The notes under the pieces: model-generated
Databases searched by the model: none
What the model was told of the DNA's origin: nothing
What the model saw: only the letters and a program-made list of their open reading frames with translations
Position numbers and translations under genes: made by a program
Shown: piece by piece, positions 56,398 to 60,331 of the stretch
Layout of the letters: each line of letters begins with the position of its first letter
Position numbering within the stretch: position 1 is the stretch's first letter
Source: Nicoletella semolina
GTDB lineage: Bacteria; Pseudomonadota; Gammaproteobacteria; Enterobacterales; Pasteurellaceae
Assembly (NCBI RefSeq): GCF_004345745.1
Contig: NZ_SLXJ01000003.1
Span: 62,001 to 126,000 of the forward strand
DNA: 64,000 bases
Direction of reading: 5' to 3'

Positions 56398-57128
56398 TAT
56401 TCTTCCTCGCCTTGTTCAATTTCATCATCAATGCATTCTGCATTTTCATCACCAAAAGTAACCGCTTGTTCCCCCCCCCTGCTTTGCTGATTAGGAACTG
56501 TTGCTTCCCCTTCTCGAATTAAGCGTAACTGAGCCTCTCGAATATCATCACCTACTCGCACATCAGCACCAAAGCGGAAAACAGATTCAGAAATCACAAA
56601 TTTTTTACTCGTTTGATCGCCCACTCGAGTAATGATACCTATTCGTTGTAAGCGACGTAACGCACCGCCTACTTTTTCCGCTAATTTTGCTTTATCTAAA
56701 TCTGAGCCTGTTGAGCGAGGATTGACCGCTTTTAGCAATTTTGATTCATCTGCCAAATTTAATAATTCATTATACACTTCATCGTAGCTAAAAATGCCCT
56801 GCTGTGCCAGTCGCTCTGGACTCAAATAGAGGTAACATAACACTTTCCCCACGAGCATTTCCATCTCACTCATCGCACTGCGTGTAATCAATGTTGTTGC
56901 TTTAGGACGCAAATAGAAAAAACCTTCTGGAGCACGAATCAAATCCACATTATAACGGCGATAAAATAGTTCTAATTCTGTTTGATAATCCATCAAAAAA
57001 GCGTGTTCATCAAGGCTCTCTATACTGATATGCCGCCCAGAACGTAACTGGCTATCAAGTGATGGAAAGATAGAATTGGCAATCGCTTGTGCCAGTTTGG
57101 TTGGAATTACATTTTGGGAATCAGTCAT
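56397..57128 (-). CDS. mukE: MukE, condensin kite subunit (with internal G9 tract)
   Basis: MukE bridges MukF and MukB. The 243-aa protein has tandem winged-helix domains ([41 protein letters not shown]) and an acidic C-terminal tail ending EIEQGEEE. Near the end a run of nine G (nine C at 56471-56479) encodes Arg-Gly-Gly-Glu directly next to an uptake signal (GAACAAGCGGTT). Loss of one G keeps the frame open into mukB; gain of one stops about ten codons on. The start is 23 bases after the endonuclease stop, with a moderate AAGAGA site. Confidence 0.95.
56471..56479 (-). repeat. G9 homopolymer within mukE
   Basis: Nine consecutive C on the plus strand (G on the coding strand) interrupt otherwise AT-rich sequence. 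Such tracts are mutable by slipped-strand mispairing in Pasteurellaceae. The length is at the low end for efficient phase variation. Confidence 0.6.
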
Positions 57129-57151
57129 TTTTATTCTCTTAAAACTTGTAT

Positions 57152-57895
57152 TTAAATATCAAATAATTCTGTTGGATCAATTTTGAATTGCAGCATATTT
57201 GCCGTTTTTCTACCATTATCTCCACCTTTGCGTTGAATAGTAACACGTCCCAATTTAAGTGATCCTCTTGGTGAAATTTCAACACAGCCTTGTCCATAAT
57301 GCTGTAATACATCATTAATGTTTTTTAAGACCCAACGAGCGTTATCCTTTATTTTCTGAGCAACTAAAACCCACTCCGCTGAGAATTCACCTCGACCACG
57401 AATAATATCCGTTAGGACTAAAATCTTATTTTTCTCAAACCAATTAACAACTAATTTTTGCTCATTTTCTGAAAATTCACTAAAAAACATTCTTTTTCGA
57501 TTTTTAGGTGCTGAAATACTCGGCTCTAATTCTCCAGTAAAATGTTTTAATATACGACAAATCTCATCATTAAATTGCCACATTAATTGATAACTATTCA
57601 CCCATCTTTTATCTATTTGGTTAAAACCACGGCGATTACTAACCAATTTTACCTGAATATTTCTTATATCTATATTTTCTTGATAAAAAATAAAAACCTG
57701 AACATTAATATCCGCTTTATACCCTGATAAAACAACTGCTTTAACATTTTTGACCTGATCTAAGTCATATCCCATTATTTTTAGCCATTCTTGTGCCTCC
57801 AAATATTGCTCCCAATGGTTAAATCTATTAGCAATATCTCGTTCATTTTTAAAACCATTTCGAGCAGTTTTAGAACCTAATTTAATCAAATCCAT
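57152..57895 (-). CDS. Type II restriction endonuclease, HinP1I-like (predicted GCGC)
   Basis: A 247-aa protein that I recognise as closely resembling R.HinP1I of Haemophilus influenzae P1, which cleaves G/CGC and is also 247 residues. The catalytic residues fall at identical numbers: Asp62, Gln81 and Lys83 (AD-X18-QVK, where HinP1I has SD-X18-QXK). The start [11 protein letters not shown] and the C-terminal block [14 protein letters not shown] and [11 protein letters not shown] also match my memory of that enzyme. It starts immediately after the methyltransferase stop (TAA ATG). The DNA is visibly more AT-rich than its muk neighbours. Confidence 0.88.
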
Positions 57896-58867
57896 TTAAA
57901 CCTCTAATGCTTTTAATAATTGCTGTGCCAGTTTCTGAATAACAGTGACTGTCATTGCATTTCCAGCTTGAGCTAAAACTCTACTATCAGGCAAGTTGTG
58001 TTCAATGACTTTTTCAGCTATGTCTTTAGGAAAACCTTGTAAGCGTAGTGCTTCATAGCCACTGAGTTTGCGTAGTTTTCCATTTTTAGTATATAAAATG
58101 CCATGTCGCCCTGTTCGCAAAGTTGGACTTTTTCTATCATATACTCTAAAGTCGGATTGTCGCCAATCTATAATTGTGTAATCCTTTTCCAAAAACGAGG
58201 TTAAATCATATTTCCCTTGATTATATTTATTATTTAAATATTTTTGGAAGGTAGGCGAATAAATATCAAACTCATAATCTCGTTTATCATTCAAATAAAA
58301 CTGAATATCTTGCTCTTTACCTAATCCATCTTTTCTTTGGGGGAACTGGTAAGGTTTATGTTTAATATCTTTGCGAATTCCAACAAAATATGCTCTTTCA
58401 CGCATTTGTGGTACACCATAAAATTGGCTATCTAACACTTCAAAAGAGACATCGTAACCTGCATTATCCAATAAAGATAAAATGACATTAAGTGTCTTAC
58501 CGTTATTATGATTTACGATGCCTTTTACATTTTCTAAAAGAAAATAAGGCACATTTTTCCAAGTTAATATATCAACTAAGTGATAGATAATTTGCCCTCT
58601 ATCGTCATTAAAACCCGTTCTTTTTCCTGCTATCGAAAACGTTTGGCAAGGGAATCCAGCCAACATAAGATCAAAATCAGGCAATGCAGGAATATTCAAT
58701 TGAGATAAATCCCCTAAGTTCCCTTTATCACCAAAAAAAAGCTGATACGTTAAATCTGCTATGGGATCAATTTCACTATGCCCAACGCATTTCATAGCAC
58801 AAAGCTCTAAACCTAAGCGACCTGCACCAATACCAGAGCAAAAATCCATAAATGTTAATGTTTTCAT
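57896..58867 (-). CDS. DNA (cytosine-5-)-methyltransferase, partner of the HinP1I-like enzyme
   Basis: A 323-aa C5-cytosine methyltransferase with motifs in normal order: I MDFCSGIGAGRLG, IV GFPCQTFSIAG (catalytic Cys74), VI ENVKG (Glu112), VIII QMRERAYFVG, a target-recognition region of about 70 residues, IX LSGYEALRLQGFP and X AGNAMTVTVIQKLA. I use ATG 58867; the longer frame begins with TTG inside mukF. It begins four bases after the mukF stop and ends directly at the endonuclease ATG. Predicted to modify GCGC by its pairing with the endonuclease. Confidence 0.92.
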   Translation of the reverse strand: MKTLTFMDFCSGIGAGRLGLELCAMKCVGHSEIDPIADLTYQLFFGDKGNLGDLSQLNIPALPDFDLMLAGFPCQTFSIAGKRTGFNDDRGQIIYHLVDILTWKNVPYFLLENVKGIVNHNNGKTLNVILSLLDNAGYDVSFEVLDSQFYGVPQMRERAYFVGIRKDIKHKPYQFPQRKDGLGKEQDIQFYLNDKRDYEFDIYSPTFQKYLNNKYNQGKYDLTSFLEKDYTIIDWRQSDFRVYDRKSPTLRTGRHGILYTKNGKLRKLSGYEALRLQGFPKDIAEKVIEHNLPDSRVLAQAGNAMTVTVIQKLAQQLLKALEV

Positions 58868-58871
58868 TACA

Positions 58872-60203
58872 CTACTTATTGTATTGATCAATCACATTTG
58901 CCTGCACCGCTGCCCCTTCTTGATTAATTGCTTTCCATTCAGGGTAAATCGCTTGGCTATCTCGACTTGCGATGCCTAATTTGACCGCTTGATCTACGAT
59001 AATTTTAGCCACATCAAAATGTCGAGAAAGAGGGTATTTTTCAAGCTGCTCTCGCAAAATTGCACTCAAATCTAGTGGAGTCTCCTGTTCACGATAAGGA
59101 GATAGCTGTGCTTGCATAATCTCAATAATTTGCTCTTGAACTTCTGAAAGTGTTTCAAATTCAAGTTCTGAAGGCAGTTCACCCACTGCATCAGCCTCAT
59201 TTAATTCTGTCTCATCATCACGTAAATCCACTAAAGGCTCGGCTTTTGCTGTGTAGAGATACCAAGGTTGGTCGAAATAGTGTTGTATAGAATGGCGTAA
59301 GCGCTGCCCAAATACTCGATTTTTATCCATATCAATGGCAGTACGGATAAATTTATGCACATGGCGGTCATAACCGATCCAAAGGTCTATCGCCTGCTGT
59401 CCCCAGCTAATAATGCGATCCAACTTATTCTGTAAATTCACCACTAATTGATCTACAAAATCTAATTCAGCACGCCCAATTAGGCAGGTTTGAATGCGTA
59501 ATAACTGTGCTTGTAACTTATCCCCTGCTGCGTTTAAGGTATCTTGCAACTCGCGTAGGTTAGCCGATGTTTCATCTAATAATTGCTGACAACTTACAAT
59601 CGCCTCGTGCCAATTTTGGCTTAATAACAGAGCAATCCGTTCACGAATTTGTTGCTGGTTTTCATCCATCATTCGCTGTGAAAGATCAATACTATCGAAA
59701 ATTTCTGCAACAGAATATTTAAGTGGTGCAAAAACTTGGTTACGCCAAAAACGCTCATCGCCATCTTCCTCTGCTGAAATAGAAGCACGCTGAATTTCAT
59801 CAGCAACAATCGAAAGTTGAATAGAAAGACGTAAGGTTGAAAATTCTCGTTGGCGAACATAATAATCGGCAATCCCAACACCAAGCGGAGTCAAGCGATA
59901 GATGGAGAGTCCTTCAGTAAACTCACTACTGAAACGGTTTAAAAAGCGTTGTTTTACCAAGTCATTAATTGCGTAGTTTGCACGTTGAACTAGGGTTGCA
60001 TCAGACTGCTCAAACACAAGGGAAACATGACGAAAAAGATCAATCAAATCCGTCTCAACTAATTCACCGTCAGACTGTTCTGTATTATACAAAGAAATTG
60101 CTAGTAAAAAGGCAAGGCGTTCGGTTGATAGGGACAAAGAAAATTCACGGCTTTTTGTCCACGAAATTAATTCTGGCAATGTTTGTGCTAATTGATTATA
60201 CAT
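58872..60203 (-). CDS. mukF: MukF, condensin kleisin subunit
   Basis: MukF is the dimeric kleisin linking the MukB heads. The 443-aa protein starts with a winged-helix dimerisation domain ([28 protein letters not shown]), followed by the helical middle region and the C-terminal winged helix near [27 protein letters not shown]. Length matches Escherichia coli MukF (440). It is the first gene of the muk operon, with topA upstream on the same strand. Normally mukE follows directly; here the restriction-modification pair intervenes. Confidence 0.96.
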
Positions 60204-60275: not shown

Positions 60276-60331
60276 AAAAAGACCTATTTTTCTATAAATA
60301 GGTCTTTGCAAAAAATAGGTCTTTGCAAAAA
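60276..60331 (-). terminator. topA terminator with a duplicated arm
   Basis: On the minus strand AAAGACCTATTTA-TAGAA-AAATAGGTCTTT folds into a 12-bp hairpin followed by six T. The 5' arm lies in a perfect 17-bp tandem duplication (ATAGGTCTTTGCAAAAA at 60298-60314 and 60315-60331), so two alternative 5' arms compete for one 3' arm. Confidence 0.75.

Follow-up and report, generated by a model that had tools for sequence, protein, structure and literature searches.

A HinP1I-type restriction-modification pair in an insertion slot between mukF and mukE of Pasteurellaceae

The muk condensin operon of Nicoletella semolina carries two additional genes between mukF and mukE, which together encode a restriction-modification (R-M) system of the HinP1I type. 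The operon resides in a stretch of 64,000 nucleotides from contig NZ_SLXJ01000003.1 of this species, hereafter called the window, and the genome to which it belongs is labelled G000. An earlier note on this DNA had described the pair as an insertion into the operon. The stronger result, which that note missed, is that the mukF|mukE junction is an insertion slot used across Pasteurellaceae, as comparison of the family reveals.

A complete HinP1I-type pair inside the muk operon

The genes occur in the order mukF, C5-cytosine DNA methyltransferase (M), restriction endonuclease (R), mukE and mukB, all on the minus strand (Table 1). This order and shared direction were already given in the earlier note, to which the strand can now be added, and the spacings that it reported are exact. 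Four bases separate the mukF stop codon from the start of M, the M/R junction reads TAA-ATG, and the ATG of mukE follows the R stop codon after 23 bases. The end of mukF preceding the cassette reads AAG TAG TGTA, and the start of mukB overlaps the final base of the mukE stop codon. All reading frames are open, in agreement with the claim that the operon was split without damage to any frame. M is counted here from its ATG, and an alternative TTG start at 58891 would yield a protein of 331 amino acids (aa) that overlaps mukF.

Table 1. Features of the muk operon and its R-M cassette, with positions in the window
Feature	Length	Position	Strand	Profile match or remark
mukF	443 aa	58872..60203	minus	Pfam KicB, MukF_M, MukF_C; left flank of the slot
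C5-cytosine DNA methyltransferase (M)	323 aa	57896..58867	minus	PF00145, 231.9 bits; NCBIfam dcm superfamily, 266.8 bits
HinP1I-type restriction endonuclease (R)	247 aa	57152..57895	minus	PF11463, 349.3 bits (cut-off 25)
R-mukE spacer	23 bases	57129..57151	minus	holds GAGAATAA, likely ribosome-binding region of mukE
mukE	243 aa	56397..57128	minus	PF04288, 367.4 bits; right flank of the slot
mukB	1488 aa	51931..56397	minus	open reading frame; MukB profile match at the same place in G000
Terminator-like hairpin between topA and mukF	12 pairs	60278..60307	minus	consensus scan only

M aligns to positions 2-323 of the 324 positions of PF00145 and carries the motifs PCQ, ENV and QMRER. R covers the R-HINP1I Pfam profile in full (1-208 of 208), and its residues 1-247 align without gaps to the HinP1I structure PDB 1ynm (E 1.7e-120). 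In this alignment the endonuclease retains Asp62, Gln81 and Lys83 (HinP1I numbering), as the earlier note had stated; these are the catalytic residues of HinP1I. The matches lie far beyond chance, and fortuitous open reading frames (ORFs) are rejected as an explanation of M and R. The cassette is a complete HinP1I-type type II R-M pair, as originally proposed, which is intact by sequence and represents a new member of the HinP1I family. Its G+C content (34.1% for M and 31.3% for R) contrasts with the 40.4-42.1% of mukF, mukE and mukB.

The arrangement matches that of the HinP1I system of Haemophilus influenzae P1, which has the same M-then-R order, codirectional genes, an R protein of 247 aa and the Asp/Gln/Lys site. 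HinP1I R genes are present in five of the 140 Pasteurellaceae genomes examined. Only in G000 does the pair lie inside the mukF-mukE junction, whereas the other four carriers have it elsewhere, two of them just before valS. M is 61-76% identical to the M proteins of those four pairs, and the R identities among the family pairs (67-81%) bear no clear relation to host kinship. In one carrier, G137, the R sequence and that of HinP1I disagree at only 4 of their 247 residues (by eye), and the window R is identical to the G137 protein at 170 of 247. A further relative is HsoI of Histophilus somni 2336, for which identities of 68% (M) and 72% (R) with HinP1I are given (PMC3339403).

A terminator scan detected no terminator-like site on the coding strand between mukF and mukE, which makes cotranscription of the pair with muk likely. 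M and R are most likely read from the muk transcript, and they would then sit in the operon as two added cistrons. The hairpin that separates topA from mukF points to a promoter belonging to the muk operon itself, immediately before mukF. The terminator consensus scan returned 4 sites against 3.0 expected, and a promoter scan was uninformative (15 found against 16.0 expected).

The mukF-mukE junction across the family

Both mukF and mukE were detected in 139 of the 140 family genomes. The junction could be compared in 138 of them, after omission of G102, which gave no mukE/mukF match, and G128, in which the two genes lie on separate contigs. In 25 of these 138 genomes, distributed over 14 of 43 genera, the mukF-mukE gap exceeds 300 bp, and the enlarged gaps range from 679 to 4341 bp. 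Six of the 25 occupied genomes belong to one genus and share one kind of cargo.

Elsewhere in Enterobacterales the junction behaves differently. Among 297 genomes sampled from the order, 103 from outside the family have both genes, and none of these has a gap above 300 bp (the largest, measured from profile to profile, is 165 bp). The enrichment in Pasteurellaceae yields a Fisher p of 4e-7 at the level of genomes and of 0.0006 at the level of genera (14/43 against 0/26, with outgroup genera counted by hand), relatedness being ignored in both. Space between the genes cannot be the whole reason for the slot, because family f27 has a roomy junction (profile gap of 85-148 bp, measured by hand) and no insert in 24 genomes (p 0.027 against 25/138).

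Cargo was catalogued from the ORF lists of the 25 inserts, with 30 proteins scanned against Pfam and 13 with PADLOC; a fourteenth PADLOC query came from the mukE|mukB junction of G103. About 13 kinds of cargo were found at the species level, and a defence or candidate-defence gene is present in 12 of the 25 occupied genomes. Besides the HinP1I-like pair of G000, these are HaeII with a C5-methyltransferase (G137 and G138, the methyltransferase of the latter being assigned by likeness and its HaeII found directly), an EcoRII-C-like enzyme with a C5-methyltransferase (G014), and a IIG enzyme with a specificity protein, here called BcgI-like (G048 and G005). They also include Septu PtuA/PtuB (G046 and G141), AbiEi/AbiEii (G030), YhcG nucleases corresponding to the PADLOC candidate PDC-S02 (G009, G022 and G005), and a trypsin-like protease, the candidate defence gene PDC-S45 (G163).

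The remaining cargo consists of SLAC1-like proteins (G012, G002 and G003, and frame-split in G048, where the second half is assigned by likeness), an AlkD-like protein (G162), DUF2853 (G057 and G163), SIMPL (G013) and a fusion of MFS, acyltransferase and AMP-binding domains. The fusion was identified by scan in G040, G109 and G111, and by likeness in G058, G108, G110 and G112, which are four of the six g32 genomes. Pfam gave no match for a 117-aa ORF of G111, to which ORFs in G058 and G112 are similar. In G048 the split SLAC1-like cargo is followed by the IIG pair (L081:1473-5651), which may have been inserted separately, next to mukE.

Once overlaps with longer ORFs are removed, 41 cargo ORFs of 100 aa or more remain; all of them are codirectional with muk and none is opposed. 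No integrase or transposase was found among the 30 Pfam-scanned proteins. Four genomes (G000, G014, G137 and G138) have tightly packed cargo, which begins 4-12 nucleotides (nt) past the mukF stop codon and ends 3-23 nt before mukE. The slot is also exchangeable, being empty or differently filled in genera with several comparable species. Within genus g10 the junction is empty or holds YhcG or Septu, and within g31 it holds AlkD-like, AbiE, DUF2853, or DUF2853 together with PDC-S45.

The neighbouring mukE|mukB junction was compared in 137 genomes, G020 being omitted as well because its mukB lies elsewhere. Its gap exceeds 300 bp in three. At this junction G103 carries a YhcG nuclease (L242:201-1271), G141 carries a 73-aa ORF with a zeta-toxin-like gene (L243:171-1109), so that both of its muk junctions are filled, and G005 has a gap of 501 bp. 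In G020 a transposase-like ORF (by eye) lies on the opposite strand after mukE (L245:519-1166) and mukB is about 0.47 Mb away; the muk operon of this genome is either broken up or misassembled there.

Probable recombination in the flanking genes and the origin of the cassette

Evidence for the manner in which cargo moves comes from the Septu insert of G141, a member of g27. The mukF gene of G141 is 95-99% identical to that of its congener G026 in all 150-nt windows and 75-89% identical to that of G046, a member of g10. Nevertheless, its last three mukF codons and the bases past the stop codon equal those of G046. On the other side of the insert, mukE begins with 150 nt that match G046 at 98% and G026 at 82%. 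G141 and G046 share 93.7% identity in the Septu cargo, although their mukF genes are only 78.9% identical. Such a mosaic is the trace expected if a donor fragment had recombined through mukF and mukE.

A similar tendency appears in a hand-picked set of congener pairs. The terminal 60 nt of mukF show lower identity than its interior in 11 of 14 pairs with different cargo, compared with 3 of 8 pairs in which both junctions are empty. The tail differs from the interior by a mean of -6 points in the former and +1.6 in the latter (p 0.002), and p is 0.010 when only the eight pairs with an interior as alike as the controls are used; these p values are rough because the pair sets share members and are not independent. 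Cores of the DNA uptake sequence occur close to the mukF stop codon (-15 to +60) in 46 of 138 genomes, a count that is only suggestive. Over 464 kb of G000, the Apl-type uptake 9-mer is more frequent than the Hin type (64 against 23).

We consider it probable that the N. semolina pair is a HinP1I-type cassette lodged in a recurrent exchange slot at mukF-mukE and moved by recombination of its flanks on transformed DNA. Cassettes would arrive and leave by homologous recombination between the flanking muk genes, with naturally transformed DNA as the vehicle, a route that has been proposed for minimal mobile elements. In Neisseria, such elements are described as different whole-gene cassettes between conserved genes, incorporated solely by homologous recombination (PMC3898611). 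The mukF-mukE junction looks like a site of this type in those parts of the definition that were tested, given its varied whole-gene cargo and the lack of an integrase in the scanned cargo; incorporation by recombination is shown for a single relative, G141. It differs in belonging to another family with different uptake signals, in that its variation was seen between species and genera, and in that its cargo lies within a condensin operon with all genes codirectional.

Several observations weigh against this reading. The mukE|mukB junction takes cargo as well, so mukF|mukE is not the only cargo site of the operon. Nor are enlarged junctions confined to muk: in seven of the 31 genomes (of 139) that could be read, picked by hand, the pheS|pheT gap is more than 300 bp above the minimum, with a maximum of +524. 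Only one clear mosaic was found, that of G141; the HaeII insert of G137 and G138 is a weaker case, with cargo 99.8% identical between flanks that are 97.2-97.5% identical. Three of the 14 cargo-differing pairs go the opposite way in the mukF tail comparison. Finally, a nucleotide comparison of the window mukF and mukE with nine relatives, none of its own genus, revealed no clear mosaic, and the window has one Apl-type uptake 9-mer in its mukF-mukE stretch and none at its own junction.

An alternative is that the R-M pair is itself mobile, through long target duplication or transposition linked to insertion sequences (IS), and simply landed between mukF and mukE. R-M insertions with long target duplications and IS linkage have been reported (PMC3031569), and the five family HinP1I pairs indeed occupy varied sites. 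However, no flanking duplication, repeats or clear inverted ends were found at the cassette boundaries in the window, unrelated cargo occupies the same slot, and the valS site is common to two genera, all of which render self-mobility unlikely. Carriage by phages or plasmids was rejected because no relative of the HinP1I R protein was found in 50,697 phage records and only three distant relatives (45-50% identity), all mollicute, were found among 72,556 plasmid records.

Placement in an essential operon might instead have been favoured by selection for its effect on the R-M system, which it would stabilise and protect from loss; this idea is the weakest part of the earlier note. In its favour, all but one of the 140 family genomes have muk genes, an insert that was broken or polar would carry a cost, and R-M systems can resist loss through post-segregational killing. 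Yet congeners in g10 and g31 carry differing alleles, with the junction empty or otherwise filled, and the junction is thus exchangeable, which leaves stabilisation by the essential operon unsupported. The slot also holds non-defence cargo, for which R-M addiction is not needed, and we regard this explanation as improbable. Still less credible is that the pair was ancestral at mukF-mukE and was lost elsewhere. Depletion of GCGC in G000 and several relatives could mean that restriction at this sequence is old in the group, but the pair occurs at only 1 of 138 junctions, and on this count an ancestral origin was rejected. The other sites of the remaining four carriers, the low G+C content of the cassette (31-34% against 40-42% in the muk genes) and the R identities unrelated to host kinship speak against it as well. 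The family-wide comparison thus upholds the view that the pair is an insertion not ancestral at this locus. The draft assembly, in 25 contigs, raises the prospect of an artefact joining unrelated contigs. This is hardly conceivable, given that the contig enclosing the pair is 167 kb long, that both junctions are exact and leave the genes whole, and that cassettes occur at the same point in other genera, single-contig genomes included.

Comparable cases are the exchange of R-M loci in Bibersteinia trehalosi (at the aspartate-tRNA ligase/glmU site) and a catalogue of R-M loci for Moraxella catarrhalis, in which conserved flanks define the loci (PMC6241649); these loci are at other sites, and the portions of that source consulted mention no muk insertion. 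None of the matches listed in our literature search, as judged from titles and abstract openings, describes mukF-mukE as a general insertion slot. Reportedly, Stein et al. (1998) placed the HaeII R-M system between mucF and mucE of Haemophilus aegyptius. If so, an R-M insert at the junction has already been reported. HaeII belongs to an enzyme family different from that of HinP1I, and it occurs at mukF-mukE in 2 of the 140 family genomes (G137 and G138).

The exchange slot offers two opportunities. A fixed site in a conserved operon, variable among sister species and with a readable mosaic, permits a direct test of R-M turnover. In addition, mukF-mukE marks a compact place in which new defence systems of Pasteurellaceae can be sought.

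The predicted GCGC target and HinP1I pairs at other sites

GCGC is a plausible target of the pair by homology, and the rarity of this sequence in the genome fits it. M would methylate host GCGC sites (forming m5C), and R would cut unmethylated incoming DNA. In 464 kb of G000, GCGC occurs 79 times against 1023 expected (0.08). Across 16 genomes (20-464 kb sampled from each), the four lowest observed/expected ratios (0.08-0.13) all belong to HinP1I carriers. The fifth carrier, G137, has a ratio of 0.68, and the 11 genomes lacking HinP1I lie between 0.14 and 0.85 (one-sided p 0.024, not corrected for kinship). The depletion is not specific, because CCGG (0.05), CGCG (0.13), CATG (0.14) and GGCC (0.14) are similarly avoided in G000. 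For this reason, and because G012 reaches 0.14 for GCGC without HinP1I, the depletion was rejected as proof of activity. The four other palindromes are rare even though a PF00145 search of G000 found only two C5-methyltransferases, one of them outside the window at G000:C3:51404-52669. The scarcity of GCGC nevertheless points to long-standing restriction at this sequence in the lineage, with the insertion itself left undated, and the several depletions fit long, repeated restriction by several specificities, GCGC among them.

Neighbourhoods were compared for 8 of 19 HinP1I loci, the flanks in G048 and G137 being too short to judge. In G005 and Avibacterium paragallinarum the pair is codirectional with valS and just upstream of it (L010:4027-5744 and L013:4031-5750), and this position is thus a second shared site for HinP1I, common to two genera. 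A zeta-toxin-like gene adjoins the pair in Avibacterium. In Pilibacter termitis, a firmicute, the pair lies together with a GNAT acetyltransferase gene between pheS and pheT (L014:2928-9071), and two Moraxella records place it between codirectional genes. The Helicobacter brantae locus (L017) has its downstream neighbour on the other strand. From the loci compared, packing into strings of housekeeping genes seems common for the HinP1I pair. The enlarged pheS|pheT junctions of genera g40, g18 and g36 carry about 480-520 extra bp.

A broader proposal, which we put forward only tentatively, is that defence cassettes nested in operons and lacking a promoter constitute a general class of mobile unit in naturally transformable bacteria. 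Codirectional M-R, Septu, AbiE, YhcG and zeta units would recombine via tightly packed housekeeping flanks and borrow their transcription, with mukF|mukE, mukE|mukB, the region upstream of valS and pheS|pheT as proposed sites. If true, this would explain how R-M systems turn over in the absence of classical mobile elements. A survey describes R-M systems as poorly represented in such elements and their turnover as an open question, with natural transformation among the possible routes (PMC4176335).

The right flank of the slot has one further feature. Close to its 3' end, mukE contains a coding-strand run of nine G residues (56471-56479), the sole G/C run of at least eight in the window. Slippage there would alter the last MukE residues and the coupling to mukB. 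Runs of seven to eight G residues occur at other places in mukE of three other genera.
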